Assembly: GCA_021298285.1 (NCBI GenBank)
Contig: JAJTFN010000021.1
Span: 1-36,956, forward strand
Source: Verrucomicrobium sp.
Lineage (GTDB): Bacteria > Verrucomicrobiota > Verrucomicrobiia > Limisphaerales > UBA9464
DNA length: 36,956 nucleotides
Reading direction: 5' to 3'
Below are positions 2,811 to 36,830 of the stretch, piece after piece. The position numbers were made by a program, and so were the translations under genes. Under the pieces are notes generated by a model that was not told the DNA's origin, did no database searches, and worked only from the letters and a program-made list of their open reading frames with translations. Numbering within the stretch: position 1 is the first letter of the stretch; every line of letters starts with the position of its first letter.

Positions 2811-2847
2811 CCTCCCCGGGGTGCGTTCGTCCGACACCGGACCGAAC

Positions 2848-3654: not shown

Positions 3655-4214
3655 ACCGCTCCACCCTGCTCTTTCTGGCGCTGGCGGTCTGGCTCTCGGC
3701 CTTCGCCCAGACCCAGTTCGCAAGCCTGCGGGATCTCCTGTCCGTCCCGGTCGCACTCGGTCCCTCGCTGGTCTGCTACGCCGCGCTGACGCAGGGACCC
3801 GGGGCGGCGATCGGACTGGCCGTCCTGGGAGCCCTGCTCTCCGACGCGCTGTCGAGCGCACCCCTGGGATCCGGCATCCCGGCCCCCTTCCTGTTGGCCC
3901 TCACGCTGCACCTCCAGCGACACCTCATCCTCAGGGATCAGCGTTTCGCCCAGTTCTGGATCGGATTCGGTGCCGGTGTCGGTGTGCCACTGCTGACGCT
4001 GGCGACCCTGGCCATGACCCGGGCCCAACCGGTGACGGGTGCCTTCACACTCCTCCAGCTCCTGGGGCTTGGTCTGGTGAACGGGGTCGCCTGCCCCGTC
4101 CTGTTCGCCCTCTTCGACCTGCTCCACCGGGCCTTCGACTACCGCCCGTTGGCCTCCACCACGTTCCGACCCGACCGCGAGACGGTCCGCGGCCGGCAGT
4201 TCCGCCCTCGCTGA
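3651..4214 (+). CDS. mreD: MreD-like membrane protein
   Basis: The ATG at 3651 overlaps the mreC stop (ATGA). The 187-aa protein is almost entirely hydrophobic with about five membrane segments. It contains the charged spot DLLSVPV, the small-residue stretch GLAVLGALLSDALSSAPLGSG, and a basic C-terminal tail. MreD sequences diverge strongly, so the call rests mainly on position between mreC and the PBP2 gene, on size, and on topology. MreD is an integral membrane member of the elongasome. Confidence 0.85.
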   Translation: MNRSTLLFLALAVWLSAFAQTQFASLRDLLSVPVALGPSLVCYAALTQGPGAAIGLAVLGALLSDALSSAPLGSGIPAPFLLALTLHLQRHLILRDQRFAQFWIGFGAGVGVPLLTLATLAMTRAQPVTGAFTLLQLLGLGLVNGVACPVLFALFDLLHRAFDYRPLASTTFRPDRETVRGRQFRPR

Positions 4215-4217
4215 ACG

Positions 4218-7450: not shown

Positions 7451-7468
7451 CCCACGTATCACACCATC

Positions 7469-18847: not shown

Positions 18848-19360
18848 ATGGCCACTGCCGGTGACATCATGGAAACGGGATCCCCCTCTTCCGGGGCCGT
18901 CCCGGCGGTGTCGCCCCGTCCTCGGTTCACCTGGCGCTACGACCACAAGGTCGACACCCAGGGCCGGGTGCCCATGCCGGCCAAGTGGCGCCCCGAGGAC
19001 CCTTCGACCCTGTCCCTGATGGCGGTGATGATCCGTCATGCGGCCGACACCGAATTCGTGATGGTGCTTCCCTCCGAGCAGTTCGACCGCTTCAGCCAAC
19101 CCATCTGCGCCGGGGACTTCACCGAGCCGCTCAAGCTGGCCGAGCGTCACGACTACGTGGACCGGATCATCGAACTGGACCTCGACAGCGCCGGGCGCAT
19201 CTGCCTGCCGGAGGAGATGCGGATCGCCGCCGGGCTCACCAAGGACGTGCTTTTCGTCGGTTGCATCGACCGTTTCGAACTGTGGAACCCGAAGGCCTAC
19301 CAGTCGGCTCGCGGTGCGGAGACGGTGCTCAAGAAGGTCCAGAATCCGAGAAACACATGA
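18848..19360 (+). CDS. mraZ: Transcriptional regulator MraZ
   Basis: The 170-aa product has the two SpoVT/AbrB-like half domains of MraZ. The first is FTWRYDHKVDTQGRVPMPAK (about residues 27-46) and the second is IIELDLDSAGRICLPEEMR followed by KDVLFVGCIDRFELWNP. MraZ binds DNA as a ring-shaped oligomer and controls the dcw operon it heads. About 26 residues, rich in Ser and Pro, precede the first domain, where most family members begin directly. A later start at the in-frame ATG near 18869 would trim only seven residues. There is no Shine-Dalgarno site. The stop overlaps the next gene by ATGA. Confidence 0.93.
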   Translation: MATAGDIMETGSPSSGAVPAVSPRPRFTWRYDHKVDTQGRVPMPAKWRPEDPSTLSLMAVMIRHAADTEFVMVLPSEQFDRFSQPICAGDFTEPLKLAERHDYVDRIIELDLDSAGRICLPEEMRIAAGLTKDVLFVGCIDRFELWNPKAYQSARGAETVLKKVQNPRNT

Positions 19361-19755: not shown

Positions 19756-20714
19756 ACGTCCCAGGCCCCGAGGTGCCCCCGTTCTCCCACCAACCCGTCC
19801 TGCTCCACGAAGTGGTGACCGCGCTCCAACCGAAGGCCCATGGCCGCTACCTCGATGGAACCCTCGGGGGTGGGGGCCACGCCGAGGCGATCCTGGAGGC
19901 CGGTTCACCGGGGGGCTTCCTGTACGGATGCGACCGCGATCCCGCGGCGCTCCGGGCCGCCGGCGATCGCCTGGGTCGCTTCGGGGGCCGGACCGAGATC
20001 CACCACGGCGACTTCTCCGGGGCGGACCAATGGATCACTCCGGGATCGCTCGACGGGATCCTGTTCGACCTGGGGGTCAGCTCCCACCAGCTGGACACCG
20101 CGGACCGGGGGTTTTCCTTCCAGCAGGACGGCCCCCTCGACATGCGCATGGACCCGTCCGGCGGCGGCCCGACCGCCGCCGACCTGGTCAACACGCTTCC
20201 CGCCGGCGAGCTCGCCGACCTGTTCTGGAGCCTCGGGGACGAGCGCCATTCCCGGCGCATCGCCCAGGCGCTCGTCGAGGATCGGCGGAACCGTCCGTTC
20301 ACCACGACCGGCCAACTGGCCGCCTCGATCGAACGGGTCTGTCCCCGGCGGGGATCTCCGACCCATCCGGCCACCCGGTGTTTCCAGGCGCTTCGGATCG
20401 CCACCAACGGAGAGCTGGCCTCGGTGCGCGAGGGTCTCGAGCGGGCCTTCCCGCTGCTGACGCCGGGTGGGCGGCTGGCGGTGATCAGCTTCCATTCCCT
20501 CGAGGATCGGATCGTCAAGGAATTCATGCGCCGGGAAGCCCGCGACTACGACTACGAGGGTCCCGTCGACCATCCGCACCTGCGCACCCCGAGGCCCCCC
20601 CGGGGGCGCGAGCTGGCGCGCAAGGGGATCGTCGCGTCCGACGCGGAACTGGCGGCCAACCCGCGGGCACGCAGCGCGAGGCTGCGGGTGCTCGAACGCC
20701 TTCCGGAACCATGA
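19752..20714 (+). CDS. rsmH: 16S rRNA m4C1402 methyltransferase RsmH
   Basis: GTG at 19752 overlaps the preceding stop (GTGA) and gives 320 aa. The protein has the RsmH signature: HQPVLLHEVVTAL, the SAM loop DGTLGGGGHAEAIL, FDLGVSSHQLD with DRGFSF, and the C-terminal ISFHSLEDRIVKEFM. It N4-methylates C1402 of 16S rRNA using SAM. Its position after mraZ is the universal dcw order. It overlaps ftsL by ATGA. Confidence 0.96.
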   Translation: MNVPGPEVPPFSHQPVLLHEVVTALQPKAHGRYLDGTLGGGGHAEAILEAGSPGGFLYGCDRDPAALRAAGDRLGRFGGRTEIHHGDFSGADQWITPGSLDGILFDLGVSSHQLDTADRGFSFQQDGPLDMRMDPSGGGPTAADLVNTLPAGELADLFWSLGDERHSRRIAQALVEDRRNRPFTTTGQLAASIERVCPRRGSPTHPATRCFQALRIATNGELASVREGLERAFPLLTPGGRLAVISFHSLEDRIVKEFMRREARDYDYEGPVDHPHLRTPRPPRGRELARKGIVASDAELAANPRARSARLRVLERLPEP

Positions 20715-21110: not shown

Positions 21111-23280
21111 ATGAACGCCCCCGCCACCAACGACCGGATGCTGACCGGACTGACGCTGCTCTGCTGCGCCGCGTTCGCCGGGCTCGCAGGGCGCCTCGTG
21201 TACATCCAGGGATTCCGCCCGGACTCCGCGCGCTACACCCTCGGGGCGAACCCGGCACGGGTGTCGTACATCCCTGCCCCGCGCGGCGAACTGCTCGACC
21301 GGCGCGGCGAGCGGCTGGTGTTCTCGCAGCACACCTACAACCTGCGGGGCAACCCCGTGGTGATCAGCAACCAGGCCCCCCATGTGGCGGCGATGCTCTC
21401 TCCGCTGCTGTCGATCCCGGCGGCCGTGCTCGAGGAGCGGCTCACGATCCGCCCGGAGTTGCGCTGGAAGGCCGTCCCGACGACCAACGCCTCCGGGCTG
21501 GTGACCACCCAATGGGCCAACGTCCTCCACACCAACCAGAACGTCCTGGTGGCCTCCAACCTCACCCACGCGGAGTGGACCCGGGTGCAGACCAACCTCA
21601 AGGCGTTCCGTTCCCCTGAGCAGCAGCGGCTGCTGGCCGCCTCGGCAGCCCTCGCACGGCGCCGCACCAACTCCGCCGCGATCCCCTGGTGGGACCTGCC
21701 CGCGAGATACCGCCTCAGGAAGGAGATCTCCCGCGAGGGCAAGGAGATCACCCAGGCCCTGAAGAAGATCCAACCCCAATTGAAGGAGATCCGGGAAAAC
21801 GGGATCACCCGGGAGATCGTGGAACGACGCGTCATGCCGCACGGGCAGTTGGCCGCACCGGTGCTGGGATCGACCACCAACGGGCAGATCCCGATGGTCG
21901 AATACCGCACCGCGACGCAGCGCGTCCAGGTGCGCACCCGGGAGCTCCCGGCCGATGTCCGCGGCGCCGACGGCATCGAGCGCCAGTTCGACGACGAGCT
22001 GCACGGCGTCCCTGGGCAGTCGGTGCTCCGCAGGGGCAAGGGTCGGGAACTGGCCGGAACCCGGGAACTCGACCTGCCGCCCCAGCCGGGCGCCAACGTG
22101 CGGCTGACCCTCGACGCCAACCTGCAGTACGTGGCCGAGAACGCGCTCCAGAAGTCCATGGGAAGGCTGCGGCCGAACTGGATGTCGGCGATCCTCATCC
22201 GGCCATCGACCGGGGAGATCCTCGCCCTGGCCAACGCCACCGACCCGAGGTACGTCCCGGCACGGCCTTCCGGATCGCCGCCGACGACGAACGGGCCGGC
22301 CAAGCCGAGGCACCGCAACCACGCGGTCTCCGAGCTCGTCGAGCCCGGGTCCACCTTCAAGCTGGTGACCTACGCCGCGGCCTTCGAGGCCCTCCCCGGG
22401 CGCGCGTTGACCCCCGAATCGCGCATCGATTGCGAGGGTGGCATCTGGCACCCGCCGGCGGGGCGTCGCAAACCCATCGCCGACGCCCGCGGCCACAAGC
22501 TCCACACCGCGACCCTCGAGGAGGCCTTCGCGGCCTCCTCCAACGTCGGCGCAGCCAAGCTCGGGTACGCCCTGTGGGATCCGGCGGCCCCGCCGCGCGG
22601 CACGGCGCTGGTGCGGTATGCCGACACCTTCGGCCTGTTGCGACGGACGGGCATCCTTTGCGGCGGCGAACCGAATCCCCGGATCCCCGCCTGGGACGGC
22701 CTCGGGACCCAGCTCATCCTCTCCTACGGATACGGCATCTACACCACCCCGCTGCAGATCGCCATGGCCTACGCGGCGGTGGCCAATGACGGCATCCTGA
22801 TGGAGCCCATGCTGGTGAAGTCGGTGGAAACCCCCTCCGGCGGCATCATCCGCAACCTGGCGCCCCGTCAGGTCGGCAGGGTGGTGAGTCCGGAGACGGC
22901 CCGGCACCTTGTCCGCCTGATGACGGCCGTGGTGGGGCCCAAGGGCACCGGCAAGGATGCGACCATGGACGACTACACGGTCGCCGGGAAGACCGGGACC
23001 GCCAACAAGATGACCAAGGCCCACATGGAGGCGGGGGTCACCGCACATTTCAGCACCTTCGTCGGGTTCCTGCCGGCCGAGAACCCCCCAGGTCTGCCTG
23101 CTGGTCTGCGCCGACGAGCCGAAGGGTTCGGATGGGCGCGCCGCCTACGGTGCCGCCTGCGTGCCGGTCTTCAAGGAGATCGTCCGTGAGACGGCAAGCT
23201 ACCTCACGATCCCGCCTTCGCCCACGGCCACGGTGAACACGCTGGCGGCCGGATCCGGAGGCCATTCGACGCGCCCATGA
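21111..23280 (+). CDS. ftsI: Division transpeptidase FtsI (PBP3), one-base frameshift near the 3' end
   Basis: This class B PBP has an N-terminal membrane helix, a pedestal beginning RGELLDRRGERLVFSQ, and the motifs S414-T-F-K417, S476-S-N478 and K627-T-G-T. As given, the frame stops at 23189 with a nonsense tail after FLPAENPP. Removing one C from the six-C run at 23084-23089 restores AENPQVCLLVCADEPKG and AAYGAACVPVFKEI, the normal PBP3 ending. It also moves the stop to 23278-23280, overlapping the next ATG by ATGA. The corrected protein is 722 aa. A homopolymer error or a recent mutation is the likely cause; +1 slippage on the Pro codons is conceivable. A long, charged helical insert (about residues 200-240) lies between the pedestal and the transpeptidase domain. 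Confidence 0.9.
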
Positions 23281-24476
23281 GCATGCCCCCCATGGAAGCC
23301 ACGCTCCCGGAGACCGAAACCCTGCCGCGCCCCACCGGGTGCATCGAGGGCATCGGGGCCTTCCACGACCCGCCCCGGACAACGACGGGGTGCGACGCCT
23401 CCGGTCGCCGGCGTCACCAGCGACCCCAATCCCGGGGCGCGACGATGGACGTGGCGGCAACGGCGGTGGCAAGGCATCCGCTGGAGCGTCTGGACCTCTG
23501 CCGCATCCCCTGCCAAGGCCGGGTCTCCGCGGCCACCGCGGCCCTGCTCCATGGGCTCCTGGTCCAGGCAGGCAGGCGCCCGGCGCTGCTCACCCCGGAG
23601 GGCGGGCGCATCGCCGACCGGCTGTTCCCCCAGCGTCCGATGCGGGACGAGGCCCCCGAGTGGGCACGCCTGCTGGCCACCCATGTCCGTTGGGGCGGCG
23701 ACTGCCTGGTGGTCGAGGAGGACGCCGAGATCCAGGCCCTCATCCAGGATGCCCGCCCCAGGGCCCGGGTCGAGTCGACCGCCACGGGGCGCGTCCGGCT
23801 GGAGGCGCAGGCCCTGCACTGGCGGGGAACCCGTCTCAGGGTCCTCGGCCTGCCCGGAACACCGGAACGGACGGCCCACCTGCCGCTGGTCGGCACCTCC
23901 AATCTCCGGGGCCTTGAGGCCGCCCTCGACCTCGCGCTGGCGGCCGGATGCCCGGTCCCGCGCGCGCTCGGCGCCCTGCCCCTGCTGGAGCCGCCCCCGG
24001 GGCTCCTCGAGCCCGTCCCGGCAGGTCAACCCTTCGCGGTGTTCATCGACCGCGCCTCCTCGGCGACGGAGCTCGCGGCACTCCTTTCGGAGGCGCGCGC
24101 CTTGGGTGGCCGCAGGATCCTCCTGGTCGCCGGGATCCGGGGCGCCTCGGGCTCGGCGGACCGGATGGCCCTCGGGGCCGCCGCCAGGGCGGCCGATGAG
24201 GTCGTCTTCACGTCGGACAACCCCGGCCATGTCCCGGCCGACGGGATCCTCGCCGACCTCCAGCTCGGGTTCGGTGGAGGCGCCCTCGAGGAACCCGACC
24301 GCCACGAGGCCATCCGCGCCGCGATCCGCAACGCCCGGGCCGACGACGTGGTGCTCATCGCGGGCAAAGGGGCCTTGTCGTTCCAGGAGGTCCGCGGCTC
24401 GGTGGTGCCATGGGACGACCGGCTGCACGCCCGGGATGCGCTGGCATCCCGCGGCTGGGTGGGGGACAGCCTATGA
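23277..24476 (+). CDS. MurE-like protein lacking catalytic motifs (probable pseudoenzyme)
   Basis: The 399-aa protein sits where murE normally lies. Its last 150 residues align by eye with the MurE C-terminal domain: AGQPFAVFIDRASSATEL, GGRRILLVAGIRGASGSADR, ADEVVFTSDNPGHVPAD, DDVVLIAGKGALSFQE and VVPWDDRLHARDAL. The key positions are changed. The P-loop (normally GTNGKTTT) reads C79-Q-G-R-V-S-A. DYAHTPD reads D258-R-A-S-S-A-T. The meso-diaminopimelate motif DNPR reads D314-N-P-G, and GKGHE reads G363-K-G-A-L. About 60-70 residues of the central domain, including the DHLD and carbamoyl-lysine region, are missing. So is the N-terminal uridine-binding domain, replaced by about 75 low-complexity residues. 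It overlaps ftsI (corrected frame) and the SIMPL gene by ATGA. A later start at codon 57 is possible. Confidence 0.75.
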   Translation: MSMPPMEATLPETETLPRPTGCIEGIGAFHDPPRTTTGCDASGRRRHQRPQSRGATMDVAATAVARHPLERLDLCRIPCQGRVSAATAALLHGLLVQAGRRPALLTPEGGRIADRLFPQRPMRDEAPEWARLLATHVRWGGDCLVVEEDAEIQALIQDARPRARVESTATGRVRLEAQALHWRGTRLRVLGLPGTPERTAHLPLVGTSNLRGLEAALDLALAAGCPVPRALGALPLLEPPPGLLEPVPAGQPFAVFIDRASSATELAALLSEARALGGRRILLVAGIRGASGSADRMALGAAARAADEVVFTSDNPGHVPADGILADLQLGFGGGALEEPDRHEAIRAAIRNARADDVVLIAGKGALSFQEVRGSVVPWDDRLHARDALASRGWVGDSL

Positions 24477-25225
24477 CCAGCCCATCCCGCCCCCATCTCC
24501 TCGGCGTGCTCGCCGGCCTGTTCCTGGCGGCCGGCCTGGTGCTCTCGTCTCTGTTGCTCACGCGGACCTGGCTCAAGGTTGCGGACGCCGAGTCGATCAC
24601 CGTCACCGGATCGGCCCGACGCAACATCCAGTCCGACCTCGTGGTCTGGCGTGGGACGATCACCGTCGAGAGCGCCACGCTGCTCGAGGCGCAGGCCCTC
24701 CTGGCGACCCAGGAGGCGACCACCCGGGCCTTCCTCTCGGCCCAGGGCGTGACCAACGCGCAGTTCCACCCCATCGCCATCCAGCGCGTCCAGGTCCGCC
24801 CGGCGAAGCAGGCCGCGGACGATGAGGACGGAGCCGAGGCCGCGTCCTCGAGGTTCCGCCTGAGCCGCACGGCCGAGGTTCGTTCCGGAGACATCGACAC
24901 GGTCCTGGCGATGGACTCCAAGGCATCCCAACTGGTCACCCAGGGCATCGAGTTCACGTCGGGTGCGCCCGAATTCATCTGGACCAAGGCGGGGGAGGCG
25001 AAGATCGAGATGCTGGCCGACGCCTCGCGGGACGCCCTCGCCAGGGCCGAGCAGATCGTCTCGCCGGGCGGCCGGCGGATCGCACGCCTGCGCTCCGCCA
25101 AGATGGGGGTCTTCCAGATCACCCCCCTCCACTCCACGCAGAACACGTGGGACGGGATGAACGACACCACGTCCCGGGAGAAGACCGTCACCGCGGTCGT
25201 CAATGCGAGCTACGCCCTCGACTGA
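24473..25225 (+). CDS. SIMPL-domain (DUF541) envelope protein
   Basis: The 250-aa protein has an N-terminal membrane or signal helix (about residues 8-30) and then the SIMPL pattern. ITVTGSARRNIQSDLVVWRG is followed by RTAEVRSGDIDTVLAMDSK and by FIWTKAGEAKIEMLADASRD, where family members have 'A-x-x-x-A-x-x-x-A'. It ends in TVTAVVNASYALD. SIMPL proteins are periplasmic or membrane-bound oligomers of uncertain function. Its placement inside a dcw cluster is unusual. Overlaps at both ends (ATGA with the MurE-like gene, TGATG with murF) show it is part of the operon. Confidence 0.85.
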   Translation: MTSPSRPHLLGVLAGLFLAAGLVLSSLLLTRTWLKVADAESITVTGSARRNIQSDLVVWRGTITVESATLLEAQALLATQEATTRAFLSAQGVTNAQFHPIAIQRVQVRPAKQAADDEDGAEAASSRFRLSRTAEVRSGDIDTVLAMDSKASQLVTQGIEFTSGAPEFIWTKAGEAKIEMLADASRDALARAEQIVSPGGRRIARLRSAKMGVFQITPLHSTQNTWDGMNDTTSREKTVTAVVNASYALD

Positions 25226-26628
25226 TGGAACCCGTGACGCTCCAGAGCATCGCCGACGACTCCCTCGGGACGGTCCATCCCCCGACGGCCGGCGGTGTCC
25301 GCTTCGCGGGGATCTGCACCGACTCGCGCCGCCTGCAGGCGGGCCAGCTCTTTGTCGCGCTGCGCGGGGAACGCTTCGACGGGCACGCGTTCCTCGGCGA
25401 CCCCGCCCTGGCCTCGAGTGCCGCCGCCGTGCTGGTGTCGGAGGGGCGACGGGACGAGGTGCCGGAGGGGATGCCCGCGGTGGTTGTGCGCGATCCCCGG
25501 GCGGCCCTCGGCGCGATCGCCGCGGCCCACCGGAGGCGGCTCACGCTGCCGGTGGTCTGCGTGGCCGGATCCAACGGCAAGACCACCACCAAGGAGATCC
25601 TGGCCGCCGTGCTGGCGACCCGCTTCCGGACCCAGCGCTCCGAGGCCAGCTTCAACAACGACATCGGGGTGCCCTTGAGCCTCCTGGCCGTCGATGCCTC
25701 CCACGAGGTGGCCGTGCTCGAGGCGGGCACCAACCATCCGGGCGAACTGGCTCCGCTGGTCCGCATGATCGCCCCGACGTTCGGGGTCGTCCCCCAGATC
25801 GGCCGCGAGCATCTCGAGCATTTCGGCGATATCGAGGGGGTGCTGGAGGAGGAGAGCGCCCTGGCCCGGACACTGCCCGCGGAGGGGGTGCTGTTCCTCA
25901 ACGGCGACTGCACCGCGGCCTGCCGGCTGGCCGACCTGACCCGGGCCCGGGTGGTGCGGACCGGTTCCGGTCCCGGCAACGGCTGGCGCGCGCGCGCGCT
26001 CGGGACGGACTGGGACGGCACACGGTTCGAACTCGAGGCGCCGGACCCCCGATGGAACGGCACCTACACGGTGGGCGTCCCCGGTCGGCACATGGTCTCG
26101 AACGCCGTCCTGGCGATCGCCGTGGCCGCGGAGCTGGGTGTGGACCCGGGAGCCGCCAGGGGGGCCCTGGCCGGGTTCCGTGGGGCCCGCCAGCGTCTCC
26201 AGGGATCGGAGCGCCGCGGCATCCGCTGGCTCGACGACACCTACAACGCCAACGCCGACTCGACGCTGGCCTCGCTGCGCACGCTCGCCGACCTGCCCTG
26301 CCGGGGCCGCCGGATCGCCGTCCTGGGCGACATGGCCGAGCTCGGGGAACACACCGCCGAGGCCCACCGGGAGGTCGGCGCCGAGGCCAGCCGCCTCGGC
26401 ATCGACCTCCTTGTCTGCGTCGGGAGGTCGGCCGCGGACACGGCCTCCGGGGCGGGAGACCCGGACCGGGTGCTCCGCTTCCCGGACGTCGAGAGCGCCG
26501 CGTCGGCGCTGCGCCCCCTGCTCAGGCCCGGCGACTGCGTGCTGGCCAAGGCCTCCCGGAGCAGCCGTCTCGAGCGGCTGCTCGAGTGGTTGGCGTCCGA
26601 ACCGTCCGGCATCCCGATCCCCGGCTGA
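25225..26628 (+). CDS. murF: UDP-MurNAc-tripeptide:D-Ala-D-Ala ligase MurF
   Basis: The 467-aa cytosolic ligase has the three Mur domains intact. Domain 1 contains ICTDSRRLQAGQLFVALRG and DGHAFL. The P-loop is G115-S-N-G-K-T-T-T. ASFNNDIGVPLSL and EAGTNHPGEL follow in the central domain, and the C-terminal domain has DDTYNANADSTLASLRTL and AVLGDMAELGEH. It adds D-Ala-D-Ala (made by Ddl, encoded downstream) to the stem peptide. It is the only Mur ligase in the window with all catalytic motifs. The start shares one base with the preceding stop. Confidence 0.96.
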   Translation: MEPVTLQSIADDSLGTVHPPTAGGVRFAGICTDSRRLQAGQLFVALRGERFDGHAFLGDPALASSAAAVLVSEGRRDEVPEGMPAVVVRDPRAALGAIAAAHRRRLTLPVVCVAGSNGKTTTKEILAAVLATRFRTQRSEASFNNDIGVPLSLLAVDASHEVAVLEAGTNHPGELAPLVRMIAPTFGVVPQIGREHLEHFGDIEGVLEEESALARTLPAEGVLFLNGDCTAACRLADLTRARVVRTGSGPGNGWRARALGTDWDGTRFELEAPDPRWNGTYTVGVPGRHMVSNAVLAIAVAAELGVDPGAARGALAGFRGARQRLQGSERRGIRWLDDTYNANADSTLASLRTLADLPCRGRRIAVLGDMAELGEHTAEAHREVGAEASRLGIDLLVCVGRSAADTASGAGDPDRVLRFPDVESAASALRPLLRPGDCVLAKASRSSRLERLLEWLASEPSGIPIPG

Positions 26629-26635
26629 ACGCGAC

Positions 26636-27760
26636 ATGCTCTACAAGCTTCCAGAACTGTTTCCGACGGTCCCGTGGACGGTGTTCAAGTACGTCACCTT
26701 CCGGAGCGCCGGCGCGGCGGTGACCGCGCTGGTCCTGAGCTGGCTGATGGGCCCCCGGATCATCGAGGCGCTGCGGAACCTCAAGTTCCGCCAGGACTAC
26801 CAGCCCAAGGATGTCCGGAGCGCCGGCGACGCCACGGCCGCCTCGGCCGACCTGGCCAAGCGCGGCACCCCGACGATGGGCGGCCTCCTGATCCTCCTCT
26901 CGCTGGACATCTCCGTGCTGCTCTGGGCGCGGCCCAACGCGCTCGTGCTGCTGACCCTGCTCACCCTCATGGTGCTGGCGTTCCTGGGGTTCTACGACGA
27001 CTGGCTGAAGGTCACCCGCCAGAACGCCGCCGGGGCGAGGTCCCGGGTCAAGTGGATCGTCCAGAGCCTGCTGGCCGTCGGCGTCGGCGTCTACCTGTGG
27101 CAACTGCCCTCGACCCGCGCGCTGGTCACGGAGATCCAGGTACCCTTCTTCAAGGACCCGGTGCTCAGCGCGGTGCCGTGGATCGGGATCCCGTTGGTGG
27201 CACTGACGCTTGTCGGCAGCTCGAACGCGGTGAACCTGACCGACGGCATGGACGGCCTGGCCATCGGCTGCACGCTGATCGTGGCCATGGTGATGCTGAT
27301 CCTCACCTACCTGGCCGACAACGTGAAGCTGGCGACCTACCTGCAGATCCCCCACGTGCGCGGCGCCAGCGAGCTGACGGTGGTATGCGCCGCCCTGATC
27401 GGCGCCTCGCTGGGGTTCCTCTGGTTCAACTGCCATCCGGCCGAGGTCTTCATGGGCGACACCGGATCCCTGGCCCTCGGCGGGGCCCTCGGGTTGATGG
27501 CCGTGCTGATCCACCAGCCCCTGGTGCTGCTGATCGCCGGCGGGGTCTTCGTCGCCGAGGCCGGCAGCGTGATGCTGCAGGTCGGCTGGTTCAAGTACAC
27601 CCGTCGCCGGTGCGGCGAGGGTCGCCGGATCTTCCTGATGGCGCCGATCCACCACCATTTCCAGAAGCTCGGCTGGAAGGAGTCCAAGATCGTCACCCGT
27701 TTCTACATCGCCGGCATCCTCTGCGCCGTGGTGGCGCTGAGCACCCTCAAGATCCGATGA
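26636..27760 (+). CDS. mraY: Phospho-MurNAc-pentapeptide transferase MraY
   Basis: The 374-aa polytopic membrane enzyme transfers phospho-MurNAc-pentapeptide to undecaprenyl phosphate, giving lipid I. Landmarks are TPTMGGLLILL, FLGFYDDWLKV with the catalytic Asp pair, SNAVNLTDGMDGLAIG, AEVFMGDTGSLALGGALG and MAPIHHHFQKLGW. About ten membrane segments are visible. The start lies 7 nt after murF. In most bacteria murD follows; here a 356-nt gap follows instead. Confidence 0.97.
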   Translation: MLYKLPELFPTVPWTVFKYVTFRSAGAAVTALVLSWLMGPRIIEALRNLKFRQDYQPKDVRSAGDATAASADLAKRGTPTMGGLLILLSLDISVLLWARPNALVLLTLLTLMVLAFLGFYDDWLKVTRQNAAGARSRVKWIVQSLLAVGVGVYLWQLPSTRALVTEIQVPFFKDPVLSAVPWIGIPLVALTLVGSSNAVNLTDGMDGLAIGCTLIVAMVMLILTYLADNVKLATYLQIPHVRGASELTVVCAALIGASLGFLWFNCHPAEVFMGDTGSLALGGALGLMAVLIHQPLVLLIAGGVFVAEAGSVMLQVGWFKYTRRRCGEGRRIFLMAPIHHHFQKLGWKESKIVTRFYIAGILCAVVALSTLKIR

Positions 27761-27809
27761 ACGCGAACGCCTGCCCAAGCCCTCGTCGTTCCCGTCCCGG
27801 TCGTCCCTC

Positions 27810-27825
27810 CCGGAGGAACCTCCGG
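27810..27825 (+). terminator. Short perfect inverted repeat after mraY
   Basis: CCGGAGG is followed by AA and CCTCCGG. As RNA it forms a 6-bp GC-rich stem with a GAAC tetraloop, 50 nt after the mraY stop. The following bases (TTGCTCCTTG) are only weakly T-rich, so termination is uncertain. It could also mark an attenuator before the downstream promoter. Confidence 0.3.
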
Positions 27826-27832
27826 TTGCTCC

Positions 27833-27860
27833 TTGATCATGGGGGCATCGGTTGTTTAAT
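27833..27860 (+). promoter_or_regulatory. Internal dcw promoter upstream of LysM-ftsW-murG
   Basis: TTGATC (27833-27838) is followed after 16 nt by TTTAAT (27855-27860), a five-of-six -10 match that is conspicuous in DNA this GC-rich. Transcription would start near 27867 and leave a leader of about 250 nt before the LysM start codon. This would give the second half of the dcw cluster its own promoter. Confidence 0.5.
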
Positions 27861-28116
27861 CGCCCCCCGTCGACGGCCCGGATTCCCCCGTGGAGACCAG
27901 GGCCTCGCCCCCGCGGCGATCCGTGCAAACCCGAACGAATCCCATTTCCGTACCCTCGTCGTGGGCCCCGTGCCCCGACGCTCCCTCGGCTTCACGCACG
28001 CCGTCATCGCGGCGACCCGCATCGCTCTCGTCCGGACCCGGTTGGAGGACCCGGTTCCGGACGAATCCCCAAGAGTCCATCCTCGATCCAACCAGCACCG
28101 CCCCCATCCCTGACCC

Positions 28117-29031
28117 ATGAGCATCCCCAACTCCCCGCTGCTTCCCGGCTCCAAACTCGAGCAGGCGGCCAAGAGCCGTTCCACCTTCAGCATCGCCGCC
28201 TTCATCTTCAGCGCGCACGTGGCCGTGTTCCTCGTGGTGCTGCTCAACGGCTGCAACAAGGAGAGCTCGGCGACGACGGCGTCCTCCCCCGACCCGGCGC
28301 AACTCTCCAACCAGACGGACCTCGCCGTCCAACCGCTGTCCCCGCCGCCCGGCACGACCGAACCGGCCGTGGTCCCCGGCGCGGACACCCTGCCGACCAA
28401 CCCGCCGACCGCCCTCCCCGGGGGCGTGGTCACCTTCCCGGGCACCCCGGCCAATGTCGCCACCTCGACCCCTCCCCCGATTCCCGACCTCGGCGCGGGC
28501 CTGACGACCGGCGCCGGTCCGGCCGAGACGCTGCCGCAGGGCGCGGGCTCCACGACCTCCGAGTACAAGGTGAAGGGCGGGGACATCGCCTACAACATCG
28601 CCAAGGCCAACGGGATCTCGCTCAAGGCCCTGAAGGATGCCAACCCGAACATCGACCTCGGCAAGCTGAAGGTCGGCCAGGTGCTGCAGATGCCCGCCGG
28701 CGGTGCCGCAAAGGAGACCACCGCCAAGACCCTGCCGAAGAACTCCGCTGCCGCGGACATCGCGACCGAGGCCGCCGGCGCATCCTCCGGGTCCACCTAC
28801 ACCGTCAAGGGTGGTGACACGCTCGGTCGGATCGCCAAGAAGAACGGCATTTCCGTCAAGGCCCTCCGCGCCGCCAACAACCTGAGCGGCGACAAGATCA
28901 ACGTCGGTCAGAAGCTGAAGATCCCGGCCAAGGGAGGCACCGAGACCCCCGCGCCCGCGGTCAAGGCCCCGGCCGAACCCATTCCCGCAGCCCCGGTCCC
29001 GCTGACCCCGCCCTCCGGAACCGGCCGCTGA
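28117..29031 (+). CDS. Membrane-anchored protein with two LysM domains
   Basis: The 304-aa protein has a 25-residue cytosolic leader and then a hydrophobic helix ending in L-N-G-C46, which may be a lipobox or just a membrane anchor. A Pro/Thr/Ser-rich linker follows (about 50-145). Two LysM peptidoglycan-binding modules come next, at about 149-192 (YKVKGGDIAYNIAKANGISL) and 228-271 (YTVKGGDTLGRIAKKNGISV), and then a Pro/Ala tail. No catalytic domain is attached. It should hold the cell membrane to the wall, or mark sites of synthesis. It is the first gene of the second dcw transcription segment, 43 nt before ftsW. Confidence 0.88.
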   Translation: MSIPNSPLLPGSKLEQAAKSRSTFSIAAFIFSAHVAVFLVVLLNGCNKESSATTASSPDPAQLSNQTDLAVQPLSPPPGTTEPAVVPGADTLPTNPPTALPGGVVTFPGTPANVATSTPPPIPDLGAGLTTGAGPAETLPQGAGSTTSEYKVKGGDIAYNIAKANGISLKALKDANPNIDLGKLKVGQVLQMPAGGAAKETTAKTLPKNSAAADIATEAAGASSGSTYTVKGGDTLGRIAKKNGISVKALRAANNLSGDKINVGQKLKIPAKGGTETPAPAVKAPAEPIPAAPVPLTPPSGTGR

Positions 29032-29074: not shown

Positions 29075-30220
29075 ATGCGCACGACATCGATCCTCCTGCT
29101 GCTGACGGTCAGCCTGCTGCTGGCCCTGGGGTTCACCATGCTGGCCAGCGCCGTGATGCTGGAGTCGAGGTTCTCCAACCTCATCACCATGCAGGGGGTG
29201 GCGATCGTCGCCGGAGCGACCCTGATGTGCCTGCTGTGGCGCAGCGACTACCGGTTCTGGATCCGCACCCAATGGTGGTGGTACGGGCTGGCGCTGCTGC
29301 TCCTGGCCCTGGTGCTGTCGCCCCTCGGAACCTACCGCAACGGCGCCCAGCGCTGGGTCTTCGGGACCCAGCCGGGGGAGTTCGCCAAGCTGCCGCTCCT
29401 GCTGACCCTCGCGGCCTGGGGAGCCCGGTTCGGACCGCGCATGCGTTTCGGGGGCAACCTGCAGACCTTCCTGTGGGGCCAGGCGCTGCCCGGGCTGGTC
29501 GTCCTGCCGTTTCTCGGCCTGCTCTACAAGCAGCCCGACCGCGGGACCATGATCCTCTTCGGGATGGTGACGCTGGTCGTCCTCCTCCTCGGGGGGATGC
29601 GCAAACGCTTCGCGATCATGCCCCTGTTGGCGGGCGTGGGTCTGGGGGTGCACTTCTACCGGTCCAGCGAGATGGTGCGCAAGCGGGTGGATGCATTCCT
29701 CCACCCGGAACTGGATCCGCAGGGCACCGGCTCGCAGGCGTTGAAGTCGCTGGCGGCCCTTCGGGAGGGAGGACTCGAAGGGGTCGGGCTCGGCTCCGGG
29801 GTCATCAAGCTGACCATCCCGGAGCAGCACACCGACTTCATCCTGCCGGTGATCGGCGAGGAACTGGGCCTGTTCTTCACCCTCGGGATTCTCGTCGCCT
29901 TCGCGGTGATCCTGCTGTGCGCCGTCCGGATCGCCTCCCGGGCCGCCGACGTCGAGGGACGCCTGCTGGCCGGCGGCATCGGTTTCCTGATCGCCTGCCA
30001 GGCGATGATCAACATCGCGGTGGTGACCAACTCGATGATCAACAAGGGGATGCCCCTGCCCTTCGTGAGCCGGGGCGGGTCGAGCGCCGTGACGATGCTG
30101 GCCCTGGTGGGTCTGCTCCTGTCGATCGCACGACGTGCCCCCGAGACGGCGGAATCCGCCCCGGAACGCCGCGCCAATCCGTTCCAGTCCCCGGACCTCG
30201 AATCCCTCCCCGCCCGATGA
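29075..30220 (+). CDS. ftsW: SEDS septal peptidoglycan polymerase FtsW
   Basis: The 381-aa protein has about ten membrane segments and SEDS motifs distinct from the RodA encoded at 6239: QRWVFGTQPGEFAKLPLLL, YKQPDRGTMILFGM, EQHTDFILPVIGEELG and GMPLPFVSRGGSSAV. It polymerises lipid II at the septum with FtsI. Its place before murG is the conserved dcw order and separates it from RodA. Bases before the ATG are a run of C, with no Shine-Dalgarno site. It overlaps murG by ATGA. Confidence 0.95.
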   Translation: MRTTSILLLLTVSLLLALGFTMLASAVMLESRFSNLITMQGVAIVAGATLMCLLWRSDYRFWIRTQWWWYGLALLLLALVLSPLGTYRNGAQRWVFGTQPGEFAKLPLLLTLAAWGARFGPRMRFGGNLQTFLWGQALPGLVVLPFLGLLYKQPDRGTMILFGMVTLVVLLLGGMRKRFAIMPLLAGVGLGVHFYRSSEMVRKRVDAFLHPELDPQGTGSQALKSLAALREGGLEGVGLGSGVIKLTIPEQHTDFILPVIGEELGLFFTLGILVAFAVILLCAVRIASRAADVEGRLLAGGIGFLIACQAMINIAVVTNSMINKGMPLPFVSRGGSSAVTMLALVGLLLSIARRAPETAESAPERRANPFQSPDLESLPAR

Positions 30221-31431
30221 GCCGACCCGCCGCCACCCCTCTCCATGTCGCCATCGCCTGCGGTGGGACCGGTGGCCACCTGTTCCCGGGGCTGGCGGTC
30301 GGCCGGGAGCTCACGGCCAGGGGCGCCCAGGTGACGCTGCTGGTCTCCCCGAAGGAGGTCGACCGGGAGGCCGTGCGCGACATCGGCCTCCGGACGGCGA
30401 CGCTGCCGGCCGTCGGCCTGCAGGGAGGCAACGTGGGGTCATTCGTCGTCGGGTTCGTCCGTGCCTGGAGGGCGGCCCGCCGGTGCTTCACCGACCGCTC
30501 CCTCGGTCCAAGGCCGCCGGAGGCCGTCCTCGGAATGGGGGGCTTCACCGCCGCGCCGCCGATGCTGGCCGGAAGACACCTCGGTGCCGCGATCTTCCTC
30601 CACGAATCCAACACGGTCCCGGGACGCGCCAACCGCCTGCTGGCCCGCTGGGTCCGGGAGGCCTTCAGCGGATTCACGGAGACCGGCTCCCGCTGGGCGG
30701 CCGCACGCACGACCTGCACGGGAACCCCGGTCCGTGAGGAGATCGCGCGGCTGAGGCAGCGCCGGGATGCACGGTCGGCCCGGCTCGCCCTCGGTCTGGA
30801 CCCGGACCGCCCGGTGCTGCTGGTGACCGGCGGGAGCCAGGGTGCCCGTGGACTCAACCAGGCGGTCTGCGCGGCCTTGCCAGGCCTGGCCGCCGCCTCT
30901 CCCGGACTCCAGTTCATCCACCTCTCGGGCACGCCCGACCTCGAGGCGGTCCGGGCGGCGCACGGGCCACTTGGGACGCGCTCGGTCGTCCGTCCATTCC
31001 TCCGGGAGATGCACCTCGCGCTGGAGGCGGCCGACGCGGCCGTCAGCCGGGCCGGAGCGTCGTCGCTGGCGGAACTCGCGGCCGTCGGGCTGCCCTCCGT
31101 GCTGATCCCGCTGCCGACGGCGCAGGACGATCACCAGCGCCACAACGCCCTCGCCCTAGAGCGGGCCGGAGCCGCCACGCGTCTGGAGCAGGCTGGACTC
31201 GATCCGGATCGCCTCCGGTCGTCCATCCTCCGTCTCATCCACGAGGAGGGCACGCGCGCGGAGATGTGCCGGGCCCTGGCGGAACTGGACCGCCCGGAGG
31301 CCGCGGCCACGATCGCGGAATGCATCCTCGCGCACCTGAGGCAGCCGTTCACCCAGGCGGTCCGGGCCGTTTCCGGTCCGGAGAGGCTGCCCGTCGCGGG
31401 CCGTTGGATCCCGTTCAAGGAGGCCGCATGA
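30217..31431 (+). CDS. murG: UDP-GlcNAc:lipid I GlcNAc transferase MurG
   Basis: The 404-aa GT-B glycosyltransferase converts lipid I to lipid II on the inner face of the membrane. It has the N-terminal CGGTGGHLFPGLAVGREL, LGMGGFTAAPPMLAG, LHESNTVPGRANRLLA, the linker strand LLVTGGSQGARGLNQAV, and the donor site SRAGASSLAELAAVGLPSVL with QDDHQRHNA. A C-terminal extension of about 30 residues goes beyond the usual end. It overlaps murB directly by ATGA; murC, which often lies between them, is absent. Confidence 0.96.
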   Translation: MSRPAATPLHVAIACGGTGGHLFPGLAVGRELTARGAQVTLLVSPKEVDREAVRDIGLRTATLPAVGLQGGNVGSFVVGFVRAWRAARRCFTDRSLGPRPPEAVLGMGGFTAAPPMLAGRHLGAAIFLHESNTVPGRANRLLARWVREAFSGFTETGSRWAAARTTCTGTPVREEIARLRQRRDARSARLALGLDPDRPVLLVTGGSQGARGLNQAVCAALPGLAAASPGLQFIHLSGTPDLEAVRAAHGPLGTRSVVRPFLREMHLALEAADAAVSRAGASSLAELAAVGLPSVLIPLPTAQDDHQRHNALALERAGAATRLEQAGLDPDRLRSSILRLIHEEGTRAEMCRALAELDRPEAAATIAECILAHLRQPFTQAVRAVSGPERLPVAGRWIPFKEAA

Positions 31432-32417
31432 AGAATCCGTTGAGGCTCAGCCCGGAACCCGTCGACGCCACGATCGAGTCGGCGGCGGCCCACGCCGAGG
31501 ACATCTCCAACGCCTTCCGGGATCTCCAGATCGTCCTGCCCGCCGACGCGGTGGTGCGCCGTGACGAACCCATGGCCCGACGCACGACCCTGCGGGTCGG
31601 CGGCCCTGCCGATCTCTATGTGGAGCCCGGGTCGGAAAACGCCTTGGCCAGCACGCTGGAGATCGCCCACCTGCGCGGGCTGCCGGTGTTCCTGCTCGGG
31701 CGCGGGTCCAACCTGCTGGTCCGCGACGGGGGCATCCGGGGCATCGTGGTCTCGCTGGCGCACCCCCGGTTCTCCAAGGTGGAGATCTCCGACGGGCGGA
31801 TCACCGCCGGGGCCGGCGCGAGGCTCAAGGGCATCGCCCATGAGGCCCGCCGCGCCGGCATCGGCGGCCTCGAGTTCTTCGAGGGAATCCCCGGCTCGCT
31901 CGGCGGGGCGCTGCGGATGAACGCCGGGGCGATGGGCTCCTGGACCTTCGACGCGGTGGATCGGCTGCGCTGCATGAGCCGCTCGGGCGAGATCCTCGAC
32001 CTGCCGGCGTGCGAGGTGCCCGTGGAGTACCGCTCCTGCCCCCTGCTGGCCACCCACATCGCCCTGGGCGCGGTGCTGAGAGGGCGGCCCGACGACGCCG
32101 ACGCGATCCGCGCCCGCATGGAGCAGTTCTCCAACAAGCGCTGGACGAGCCAGCCCAGCCAGCCGAGCGCCGGCTGCACCTTCAAGAATCCCCTGCCGAC
32201 CCTCCCGGCCGGCCGCCTCATCGACGAGCTGGGCCTGAAGGGGACCCGGGTCGGGGACGCGATGGTCAGCGACGTGCACGGCAACTTCTTCGTCAACCTC
32301 GGCCAGGCGACCGCGGCCGACATGCTCGGCCTCATCGAGGCGGTCCGGACCCGGGCCCGCGAGGCGCGCGGCGTCGAGCTGGAGACCGAGGTGGAGATCG
32401 TGGGCGAGGACGCATGA
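31428..32417 (+). CDS. murB: UDP-N-acetylenolpyruvoylglucosamine reductase MurB
   Basis: The ATG at 31428 overlaps murG (ATGA) and yields 329 aa. FAD-binding motifs are RRTTLRVGGPADLYVEPG and LLGRGSNLLVRDGGIRG, then FFEGIPGSLGGALRMNAGA. Catalytic-domain motifs are EYRSC and PSAGCTFKNP followed by GNFFVNLGQATAADML. This is the short type II layout. At the position of the proton-donating Ser (Ser229 in E. coli) it has Cys250, a substitution that may still serve as acid. About 30 residues precede the FAD domain. The enzyme makes UDP-MurNAc with NADPH. Confidence 0.95.
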   Translation: MKNPLRLSPEPVDATIESAAAHAEDISNAFRDLQIVLPADAVVRRDEPMARRTTLRVGGPADLYVEPGSENALASTLEIAHLRGLPVFLLGRGSNLLVRDGGIRGIVVSLAHPRFSKVEISDGRITAGAGARLKGIAHEARRAGIGGLEFFEGIPGSLGGALRMNAGAMGSWTFDAVDRLRCMSRSGEILDLPACEVPVEYRSCPLLATHIALGAVLRGRPDDADAIRARMEQFSNKRWTSQPSQPSAGCTFKNPLPTLPAGRLIDELGLKGTRVGDAMVSDVHGNFFVNLGQATAADMLGLIEAVRTRAREARGVELETEVEIVGEDA

Positions 32418-33328
32418 ACCGCCCCCTGCACATCACGGTCCTGCGCGGCGGCCCCTCGGCCGAGCGTGAGGTCTCGCTGCGCTCCGGGGATGCCGTCGCC
32501 CGGGCCCTGCGATCCCTGGGCCACCGGGTGGACGAGGTCGACCCGCTGCCCGGCGACCCGGCCATCCCCGCCGGCACCGACGTGGTCTTCCTGGCGCTGC
32601 ACGGCACCTACGGCGAGGACGGCACGGTGCAGTCCGAGCTCGAGGAACTGGGGGTGCCCTACACCGGCTGCGGCGTCCGCGCCTCGCTCTTCGCCTTCGA
32701 CAAGATCCTCACCAAGCGCCGCTGCCTGCGGGCCGGGATCCCGACGGCCCGGTTCGAGCGCTTCATCGACGCCGGGGCGGCCTGGCCCGACGGGTGGCAA
32801 CCGCCGGTCGTGCTCAAGCCCGCCAGGCAGGGGTCCAGCGTCGGCCTGCGCTTCGTCGACCGCGTCGAGGACTTCCCGGCGGCGCTGGCCTTCTCGCTGT
32901 CGCATGGGGGTGAGGTGCTGATGGAGGAGCGCATCGTCGGCCGGGAGACCACGGTGGGCATCCTGGACGGCTCCGCCCTGCCGGTGGTGGAGGTGCGGCC
33001 CAGGTCGGGAACCTACGACTACGCCAACAAGTACACGCCCGGCCGCACCGAATACTTCTGCCCGGCGGAGTTCCCGGCCGAGGTCACCCGGGCCGTGCAG
33101 GCCGCCGCGCTGGGGGCCTTCCACGCGATCGGGGGCCGCGACTACGCCCGGGTCGACGTGATGGTCCGCCCGGACGGCTCGCCGGTCGTCCTCGAGGTGA
33201 ACACCCTGCCCGGGATGACCGAGACCAGCCTGCTGCCCAAGGCCGCGGCCGCGGCCGGGATCGGCTTCCCGGAACTCTGCGGACGGATGGTCCGTTCGGC
33301 ACTCTCCAGACCCCCGGCGACCCGTTGA
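32414..33328 (+). CDS. ddl: D-alanine:D-alanine ligase Ddl
   Basis: The 304-aa ATP-grasp ligase supplies D-Ala-D-Ala to MurF. It has ITVLRGGPSAEREVSLRSG, the substrate motif LALHGTYGEDGTVQ, PYTGCGVRASLFAFDK, the ATP-binding LKPARQGSSVGL, the omega-loop YDYANKYTPG, and the metal-binding LEVNTLPGMTETSL. Length is typical of the DdlB type. It overlaps murB by ATGA, and ftsQ starts 4 nt later. Confidence 0.96.
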   Translation: MNRPLHITVLRGGPSAEREVSLRSGDAVARALRSLGHRVDEVDPLPGDPAIPAGTDVVFLALHGTYGEDGTVQSELEELGVPYTGCGVRASLFAFDKILTKRRCLRAGIPTARFERFIDAGAAWPDGWQPPVVLKPARQGSSVGLRFVDRVEDFPAALAFSLSHGGEVLMEERIVGRETTVGILDGSALPVVEVRPRSGTYDYANKYTPGRTEYFCPAEFPAEVTRAVQAAALGAFHAIGGRDYARVDVMVRPDGSPVVLEVNTLPGMTETSLLPKAAAAAGIGFPELCGRMVRSALSRPPATR

Positions 33329-35522: not shown

Positions 35523-36830
35523 ATGAACGACGCCTCCATCCGCTTCCTCGCCGTCGGCACCGCCGGCGCCCGGATCCTCGACGGGCTCCGCAGCCGCTCC
35601 TCCAGCCCGCTGGAATGCGCCCACGCGGACACCAGCCCGGAGTCCCTGCGCCTGTCGCCGATCGAACGGAGGATCACCCTCGGTCTGTCGGTCACCCACG
35701 GGCTTGGGGCCGGTGGCGACCCGGACATCGGCCGGCTGAGCGCGGAGGCCGACCTGGCATCGATCCGGGAATTCGCCGGCGGGGCACGCCTGGTGTTCGT
35801 CGTCACCGGACTCGGGGGCGGAACCGGCTCCGGGGCGGCCCCGGTGATCGCGAGGGCGGCGCGCGAATCGGGCGCGCTGGTGCTGGTGATCGCGACGACC
35901 CCCTTCGAGATCGAGGGACGGCGGGTCCAGTACGCCGTCGAGTCGCTCGAGCGCCTGCGGAGCGCGGCCGACGCGGTGCTGGCGATCTCCAACCAGCGGG
36001 TCCGCCGGATGCACGACGACCGCACCCATCCGCACGAGCTCTACCAGTTCGCCAACGAGCTGCTGGCCCAGACCCTGCAGGGGCTGTGGCGGCTGCTCGA
36101 TTCGCCCGGCCTCATCCCGATCGAGTTCGCCCACATCGAGCGGCTCCTGCGGGGCCGCCATGCCGAGAGCGCCTTCGCGGCGGTCCAGGCCACCGGCGAA
36201 AACCGGGCCCATGCGGCGGCGGAGCAGCTGCTGACGCACCCCTTCCTGGACACCGGTGCGGCGCTGGCCTCGGCCCGCGAGGTTCTGGTGAGCGTGGCCG
36301 GCGGCGACGACCTGCAGATCGGGGAGGTCGAGCGCCTCGTGGAGACCCTCCAGTCGCGCTGTCCGACCGCCGGCTTCATCGTGGGCGCATCGATCGACCG
36401 ATCGCTGACCGGACACCTCCACGTCACGGCGATCACCACCCGTCCACCGGCCTCGGCACCGAACCCTCTGGTGGGTTCGGGATTCGCGGGCGGCGGTCGG
36501 ACCACCGCACCCCCGGACGCGGAGGCTGGGATCGGGGCCACCGGCACCCCCGGGGGATTCGGCGGCGAGGACTTCCAACGGGAAACCGACGGCCGGTCGG
36601 TCGCCGACCCCCGGATGATCCCGCCCCCGCCCGAGCTGAGCATGGAGCAGCGCCAGCGGATCCTGAGCCGGCAGCGCGCCAAGTCCACCCGCCGCCGGGG
36701 CGACTCCCAGATGCTCATGAACTTCGACATCGCGCAACGGGGCCGTTTCGACAACACCGAGCGGAACCGGCACAAGGGGGTCGACCTCGACGTGCCGACC
36801 TACCTGCGCCTGGGAATCGTGCTCAACTGA
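35523..36830 (+). CDS. ftsZ: Divergent FtsZ tubulin homolog
   Basis: The 435-aa protein is FtsZ by its tubulin signature G98-G-G-T-G-S-G104, by ITLGLSVTHGLGAGGDPDIG, by ATTPFEIEGRRVQYAVESLE, by its place after ftsA, and by a C-terminal peptide DLDVPTYLR close to the usual 'LDIPTFLR' that binds FtsA. Several nucleotide contacts are altered. The first loop reads VGTAGAR rather than VGGGGGN. The 'NTD' loop reads A-D-T-S (residues 35-38). The T7 loop, normally N-x-D-x-x-D, reads P199-I-E201-F-A-H204. A Gly/Pro-rich linker follows the tubulin core, and the segment before the C-terminal peptide is basic. GTP turnover may therefore be slow or altered. Confidence 0.93.
   Translation: MNDASIRFLAVGTAGARILDGLRSRSSSPLECAHADTSPESLRLSPIERRITLGLSVTHGLGAGGDPDIGRLSAEADLASIREFAGGARLVFVVTGLGGGTGSGAAPVIARAARESGALVLVIATTPFEIEGRRVQYAVESLERLRSAADAVLAISNQRVRRMHDDRTHPHELYQFANELLAQTLQGLWRLLDSPGLIPIEFAHIERLLRGRHAESAFAAVQATGENRAHAAAEQLLTHPFLDTGAALASAREVLVSVAGGDDLQIGEVERLVETLQSRCPTAGFIVGASIDRSLTGHLHVTAITTRPPASAPNPLVGSGFAGGGRTTAPPDAEAGIGATGTPGGFGGEDFQRETDGRSVADPRMIPPPPELSMEQRQRILSRQRAKSTRRRGDSQMLMNFDIAQRGRFDNTERNRHKGVDLDVPTYLRLGIVLN

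Follow-up and report, generated by a model that had tools for sequence, protein, structure and literature searches.

The Mur ligases MurC, MurD and MurE are drug targets and, to our knowledge, near-universal in walled bacteria. An alternative pathway with MurD2 and MurL, which departs from the standard stem-peptide route, has been described for Xanthomonas (PMC8788868). For the Planctomycetes-Verrucomicrobia-Chlamydiae (PVC) bacteria, a recent survey (PMC12283558) reports that Planctomycetia (Pirellulales, Isosphaerales and Gemmatales) are without murC and murD and have also lost murA, murF, murG, ftsW and murJ, and that Verrucomicrobiota show high conservation of the division and cell wall (dcw) genes; a MurC-MurB fusion from Verrucomicrobium spinosum is mentioned there as well. 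In plants, the MurE-like protein PAP11 is a peripheral part of the plastid RNA polymerase, with contacts made partly via its MurE C-terminal domain (PMC12681378). In this study, we analyzed a stretch of 36,956 nucleotides (the window) of contig JAJTFN010000021.1 from Verrucomicrobium sp. (GCA_021298285.1; order Limisphaerales, Verrucomicrobia subdivision 3), a metagenome-assembled genome (MAG) of 3.37 Mb in 244 contigs with 88.9% completeness. Here, the murE slot of a dcw cluster is occupied by an open reading frame (23277-24476) encoding a degenerate, presumably non-catalytic MurE, termed pseudo-MurE in the following. On balance, it is somewhat likely that this is a MurE pseudoenzyme under purifying selection in a lineage that has given up the chemistry of MurC, MurD and MurE and brings the stem peptide in via Mpl.

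For comparison, 59 genomes were searched, namely the source assembly, 18 genomes of the same genus, 17 of the same family and 23 of the same order, giving 36 genomes for the family in total. A Pfam search with the pseudo-MurE of the window returned only Mur_ligase_C (PF02875; residues 246-365, E 2.3e-18, 67.7 bits at a cut-off of 28.4), without a match to Mur_ligase_M (PF08245) or Mur_ligase. The MurE model TIGR01085 scored 116.3 bits, under half of its cut-off of 257.3, and its alignment covers only model positions 248-471 of 472. Both results agree with the initial annotation, which had recognized the C-terminal half as MurE. For inspection of motifs, 37 proteins were aligned (28 pseudo-MurE proteins of the family, the MurE of genome G049 and eight order-level MurE proteins), and 30 rows were inspected. 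Compared to intact MurE of the same order, GTNGKTT is changed to QGRVSAA in the window protein, DYAHT to DRASS, DNPR to DNPG and GKGHE to GKGAL; VSSHALxQxR is gone, and the central domain is shortened by about 60 alignment columns. The loss or replacement of the P-loop, DYAHT, the Arg of DNPR, the His-Glu of GKGHE and part of the central domain had been noted at first sight and was thereby confirmed. The loss is also not restricted to the window protein: all 23 family rows inspected (of 28 aligned) are without the P-loop GTNGKT, VSSHALxQxR and DYAHT are lost, and GKGHE is broken, several genera keeping GKGH without the Glu. DNPG was also found in G016, and DNPR is lost in several other genera and thus variable among relatives. 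The N-terminal uridine-binding domain, likewise proposed to be gone, is unrecognizable in the window protein and its nearest relatives only; the majority of the other family genera still have it in recognizable form. Largely kept are the segments GQxFxVxxD, AGK and P[FWC]xD, and an RG[WYF]xG-like C-terminal end recurs in most pseudo-MurE rows and not in intact MurE rows. Judged by these motifs, this is not the sequence of a functional ligase, and the activity has presumably been lost.

An AlphaFold2 model of pseudo-MurE, calculated from an alignment including twelve order-level MurE proteins, had a predicted local distance difference test score (pLDDT) of 71.9 and a predicted template modeling score (pTM) of 0.72, with residues 1-65 being unreliable. 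In a Foldseek search with this model, the best solved match was MurE (2wtz, E 2.8e-23) and the second was plant PAP11 (8r6s, E 4.0e-23); another PAP11 structure, 8r5o, is the third-ranked PDB sequence match. The product of the frame is MurE-derived with a predicted Mur ligase fold, as expected from the first assignment. A shortened MurE was also observed in G051 (L121:9442-10596), with an intact P-loop and about 80 central-domain positions missing; this genome keeps MurC and MurD.

To describe selection, the ratio of non-synonymous to synonymous substitution rates (dN/dS) was determined. Of 136 same-genus pairs, the 22 with the least divergence gave values of 0.057-0.216 for pseudo-MurE, and three pairs from another genus yielded 0.084-0.113. 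In nine pairs, the values of pseudo-MurE (0.05-0.15) and MurF (0.12-0.19) indicate similar constraint, and with 0.18-0.36 for the LysM-domain protein of the cluster (seven pairs measured), the latter is no more constrained than pseudo-MurE. Pseudo-MurE was matched in 29 of the 36 family genomes with zero internal stops, G018 contributing a 57-residue piece only. A slowly decaying relic, kept open only through a translationally coupled operon, would fit with other Limisphaerales, which show every stage from degenerate MurE and degenerate full-length MurD to MurD remnants and clean deletion, and also with the higher values of 0.28-0.59 in five more distant family pairs, where synonymous change is near saturation. 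However, when three pairs were split in two, dN/dS was low in both parts of the protein (0.08-0.17 for the first 60%, 0.04-0.12 for the last 40%), a new conserved tail is present, and neither values near 1 nor interrupted frames were observed, making a relic very unlikely. The data support that pseudo-MurE is a MurE kept by purifying selection and not a decaying pseudogene. Very probably, the protein serves some function that is selected for.

That the finding is a sequencing or assembly artefact, or that an intact murE is present elsewhere in the genome, is extremely improbable. The source assembly is incomplete and fragmented and the adjacent ftsI is frameshifted, yet the same protein family occurs in 28 further genomes of the family, MurE over the TIGR01085 cut-off in none of the 36, and no second intact murE was found in the source assembly at its completeness of 88.9%. 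The frameshift also affects the 4-nt overlaps initially assigned to both ends of the gene. While the overlap with the downstream SIMPL-domain gene is present (ATGA, 24473-24476), the upstream one exists only in the ftsI frame ending at 23280; as sequenced, ftsI stops at 23189. In G016, the ftsI frame continues to the same 4-nt overlap with pseudo-murE, and the break near 23085 may be a sequencing error or a strain-specific change.

The losses go beyond what the initial annotation had in view: MurC, MurD and the glutamate racemase MurI are also missing, and Mpl is retained. In the following, "loss" genomes (n=46) are the 36 of the family and G036, G040, G042, G044, G047, G049, G052, G055, G056 and G057, and "intact" genomes are the remaining 13. 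MurE exceeded the cut-off in 14 of the 59 genomes and MurD in 16, none of them from the family. Among the 14 genomes with MurE, G049 reaches the cut-off only by the sum of pieces; its P-loop is gone, and it was counted as a loss genome. MurC was searched via the Mpl and Mur_ligase_M models only. With the Mpl model, MurC-class matches, scoring far above the lowest of the matches listed, were found in none of the 46 loss genomes and in 12 of the 13 intact ones, the exception being G050 (75% complete). Intact relatives have the gene order mraZ-rsmH-ftsI-murE-murF-mraY-murD-LysM-ftsW-murG-murC::murB. The last of these genes encodes a MurC-MurB fusion in G054, with 381.7 bits for MurC (cut-off 335.1) and 208.8 bits for MurB (cut-off 144.5). 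In the window, the MurC half of this ancestral fusion is gone and MurB stands alone, and no MurD match was found in the 356-base interval that separates mraY from the LysM gene.

A wider view was obtained from named dcw loci, i.e. the best 80 of 459 encoding a MurF relative. Nearly all of these records are labelled Verrucomicrobia or Verrucomicrobiota, and many of the labels read Limisphaerales, subdivision 3 or Pedosphaera sp. Records with other labels (Akkermansia muciniphila, Methylacidimicrobium, Proteobacteria) are few and were taken for mislabelled MAGs; in one tabulation, L113 and L116 were dropped as duplicates of L138 and L203. With 16 loci cut by contig ends, 64 were readable for MurC, MurD and MurE. 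All three genes are kept in 11 and missing in 40; seven have a full-length MurD only, five a MurD remnant, and one (L211) keeps MurD and MurE without MurC. On a FastTree phylogeny of six proteins with 102 tips (87 readable for MurC), counting losses only and under any rooting, a minimum of five losses of MurC and four of MurE is required; these counts come from one tree and from MAGs. Three of the four standard wall-peptide enzymes have disappeared repeatedly within a large bacterial group, which appears to depend on a recycling enzyme instead.

In another clade, full-length MurD is degenerate as well, in clusters that contain neither murC nor murE. Nine such proteins were aligned (L110, L111, L117, L141, L161, L187, L194, L202 and L203; a tenth, L177, was left out). 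The GNIG loop is lost in all nine, the Glu of LEVSSFQLE in eight and the AKAR-segment Lys in six, positions whose counterparts in E. coli MurD we take to serve the substrate, magnesium and the carbamoylated lysine. The mildest case is L203 with only the GNIG loop lost. Judged by these positions, degenerate MurD would parallel degenerate MurE. The degenerate MurD of L141 and L203 still scored 349.6 and 366.0 bits at a cut-off of 211.95, and annotation pipelines can therefore miss degenerate ligases. MurD remnants, matching 50-98 C-terminal residues, were observed between mraY and the LysM gene in L138, L139, L140, L144 and L160.

The enzyme retained is Mpl, which exceeded the curated cut-off of TIGR01081 in 52 of the 59 genomes (40 of 46 loss and 12 of 13 intact) and in 31 of the 32 loss genomes with at least 90% completeness. 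Of the six exceptions among loss genomes, five contain a partial Mpl (G000, G001, G006, G012 and G015) and one, G032, contains none at 76% completeness. In G000 the Mpl halves lie at the ends of two contigs, where other genes match both Mpl flanks in relatives. The reverse pattern was seen in G054, which keeps MurC, MurD and MurE and has only two short pieces of Mpl (C17:70182-70500). A middle domain of Mpl size, as assigned by size and score, is present in 29 of 31 named genomes whose cluster has no murC. GTHGKTT and FDKRSKF are invariant in all 24 rows of an Mpl alignment, two of which come from intact genomes, and EGDEYD is shared by the 24 as well. The nearest PDB entries of the G016 protein are 3hn7 (E 1.1e-95), deposited as MurC, which we take to be the Psychrobacter Mpl, and 3eag, deposited as Mpl. 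No Mpl neighborhood conserved across genera was found. Mpl is probably the main route used by the loss genomes.

In the proposed pathway, UDP-N-acetylmuramic acid (UDP-MurNAc) would be made by MurA (putative here) and MurB, and Mpl would attach the ready-made tripeptide L-Ala-gamma-D-Glu-meso-diaminopimelate (mDAP) in one step, thereby bypassing MurC, MurD and MurE. MurF would then add D-Ala-D-Ala supplied by Ddl, for which a Ddl-class match was found in 57 of the 59 genomes (not in G007 and G048), and MraY, MurG, FtsW and FtsI would act as usual. Freed from catalysis, pseudo-MurE could survive as a non-catalytic partner of a complex of MurF, MraY, MurG and FtsI, to which it would contribute its preserved C-terminal domain and the new conserved tail. 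With PAP11 as a precedent, such a role in a precursor or division complex is plausible, although we give it slightly less than an even chance. As the main alternative, pseudo-MurE might bind mDAP or the tripeptide via its C-terminal domain and deliver it to, or sense it for, Mpl or MurF. The C-terminal domain, which in MurE presumably holds the incoming amino acid, is best conserved, and GQxFxVxxD, AGK and P[FWC]xD are largely kept. On the other hand, DNPR, which we assume to bind mDAP in MurE, is DNPG in the window and G016 and lost in several other genera, and judging from these residues a role in binding is unlikely.

The source of the tripeptide was considered from the enzymes of D-glutamate (D-Glu) supply onwards. 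MurI exceeded its cut-off in eight of the 59 genomes, all of them intact, and in none of the 46 loss genomes; weak or partial matches were found in G022, G024, G028 and G034. A conclusion of D-Glu auxotrophy from the missing MurI was rejected, and the loss is not decisive, since DapF makes D-Glu in Chlamydia and many PVC bacteria are without MurI (PMC5885031). Dat did not exceed its cut-off in any of the 59 genomes, and a D-amino-acid transaminase as D-Glu source was also discarded, the widespread Dat-like match being IlvE in four proteins tested. A dipeptide epimerase of the DgcA/YcjG type was matched below the cut-off in 39 of the 46 loss genomes and in 7 of the 13 intact ones; it was rejected as a new step, as it is not exclusive to loss genomes and no ligase lies beside it. 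In G058 and G036, its neighbor was read by eye as DUF1611/DgcN-like, presumably suggesting D-Glu breakdown.

Instead of being bypassed, MurC, MurD and MurE could have been replaced by unrelated, unrecognized ligases that build the peptide stepwise on UDP-MurNAc, with Mpl serving recycling only. This would account for losses in several lineages with a common ancestor, as if a substitute had pre-existed, and would fit with the rarity of scavenging among free-living bacteria with genomes of 3-9 Mb; the frequency of the epimerase-like enzyme and extra MurF-like ligases in two loss genomes also speak for it. However, no general candidate for a replacement ligase was found in a search far from exhaustive, and neither the epimerase neighbors, none of which is common to more than 3 of 20 loci, nor the Mpl neighborhood revealed a conserved partner. 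The epimerase itself is missing in 7 of the 46 loss genomes and present in those 7 intact ones. A second Ddl-like protein (66-106 bits) occurs in at least 7 of the 59 genomes among the matches listed, in both loss and intact ones, and an extra Ddl-class ligase was dismissed as a substitute, not being general among the 59. Altogether, replacement appears rather unlikely.

Several observations weigh against entry via Mpl in a lineage without MurC, MurD and MurE chemistry. The absence of MurC was concluded from the Mpl and Mur_ligase_M models and not from MurC's own model. Mpl is not new in the losing lineages, being present in nearly all intact relatives, and the Mpl-sized domain was not seen in G071 and G083. 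Pseudo-MurE was not found in seven of the 36 family genomes (G006, G019, G026, G027, G029, G032 and G033), and of the 53 named clusters that are fully readable and lack murC, 52 have no MurE, so that it is not universally needed. Extra Mur ligase-like proteins are encoded in G027 (two) and G063 (one); with 170-185 bits, at a cut-off of 288.6, they are nearest to MurF, and being below the cut-off and limited to these two genomes, they were not retained as substitutes. Furthermore, in G059 and G060 no MurC was found in the assembly, but MurE and an intact-looking MurD (L211 and L214, judged by motifs) are kept, a combination that a simple bypass via Mpl leaves unexplained. Each of them has a MurE (~203 bits to PF08245), MurF, MurD, an Mpl-sized and a FolC-like domain, and no sixth domain for MurC. 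A possible clue is the weak activity of known Mpl with L-Ala, which is transferred onto UDP-MurNAc at 0.7 per min compared to 260 per min for the tripeptide, as stated in PMC3060825. According to the same paper, Gram-negative bacteria save about 30-60% of their wall in each generation by recycling. As only a part of the wall is saved, recycling alone cannot support net growth, which needs imported peptide or undiscovered synthesis, and no dedicated tripeptide source was found in the genomes searched. Entry via Mpl thus remains our favored reading for the window lineage. Extended to the order, we propose only tentatively that most of the free-living Limisphaerales no longer build the first three residues on UDP-MurNAc, that the tripeptide entering via Mpl is scavenged from other bacteria or made free by other enzymes, and that some members reuse dead MurE or MurD structurally.

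The features of the locus are collected in Table 1. The window holds MurF, MraY, MurG, FtsW, FtsI, FtsQ, FtsA, FtsZ, MreB and PBP2, a gene set that points to a wall probably still being made; of the later steps searched for, none is missing. Genes for MreB, PBP2 and RNase E/G lie upstream at 1782-9454, elongation and division genes thereby being present in one window. FtsZ (35523-36830, forward strand) is divergent, with VGTAGAR at the start of the GTP-binding region and the T7 loop GLIPIEFAHI. It is similarly altered in G016, G004 and G008, and the FtsZ of G056 keeps NVDF; from these motifs, the FtsZ of the window is possibly GTPase-impaired.

Table 1. Features of the dcw locus in the window and extra Mur ligase-like proteins of two loss genomes
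Feature	Position	Strand	Basis or remark
mraZ	18848..19360	+	position and similarity across loci
rsmH (mraW)	19764..20714	+	position and similarity across loci
ftsI	21111..23189	+	frame broken in C-run near 23085; continuing frame ends 23280
pseudo-murE, degenerate and presumably non-catalytic, in murE slot	23277..24476	+	399 aa; domain, alignment, dN/dS and structure evidence
Mur ligase C-terminal domain of pseudo-MurE, retained (residues about 237-365)	23985..24371	+	PF02875; mostly well modelled
C-terminal tail RGWVGDSL of pseudo-MurE	24450..24473	+	alignment
SIMPL-domain gene	24473..25225	+	PF04402; 4-nt overlap with pseudo-murE
murF (start codon inferred)	25225..26628	+	all three Mur ligase domains
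mraY	26678..27760	+	domain search
former murD position, mraY-LysM interval	27761..28116	+	no murD match
LysM-domain gene	28117..29031	+	domain search
ftsW	29075..30220	+	position and similarity across loci
murG	30217..31431	+	position and similarity across loci
murB alone (start approximate), MurC half missing	31401..32417	+	comparison with MurC-MurB fusion of intact relative
ddl (D-Ala-D-Ala ligase)	32408..33328	+	Ddl-class match at 32801-33292
extra Mur ligase-like protein (G027)	L280:901-2358	-	MurF-model similarity
extra Mur ligase-like protein (G027)	L281:1411-2694	+	MurF-model similarity
extra Mur ligase-like protein (G063)	L282:772-2103	-	MurF-model similarity

An order known from many MAGs of soil, lakes and groundwater has thus repeatedly lost MurC, MurD and MurE with the rest of the pathway kept. 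It follows that these bacteria either depend on murein peptides supplied ready-made or use a route yet to be discovered. No earlier published account of such a loss pattern was found in the open-licence literature. Among the systems described so far, the Planctomycetia are similar in being PVC bacteria without murC and murD; the lineage of the window differs from them by keeping murF, mraY, murG, ftsW, ftsI and ddl. In the MurD2/MurL pathway of Xanthomonas, assembly of the peptide still takes place on UDP-MurNAc and involves a MurD-type ligase, whereas here MurC, MurD and MurE are missing or degenerate. The enzyme retained in the loss genomes is an Mpl by the curated cut-off; elsewhere Mpl is an accessory recycling enzyme, and here it is apparently the sole known way from UDP-MurNAc to UDP-MurNAc-tripeptide. 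With MurE, the window protein shares the slot between ftsI and murF, the predicted fold and the sequence of the C-terminal domain, but it is without the P-loop and catalytic motifs, its central domain is shorter and its score is less than half of the cut-off. Together, degenerate MurE and MurD would represent a bacterial example of Mur ligases that persist after the loss of their catalytic motifs. A likeness in this respect is PAP11, likewise MurE-derived with a role outside ligation; PAP11 is eukaryotic and part of a transcription complex, whereas pseudo-murE is still located in a bacterial wall operon.

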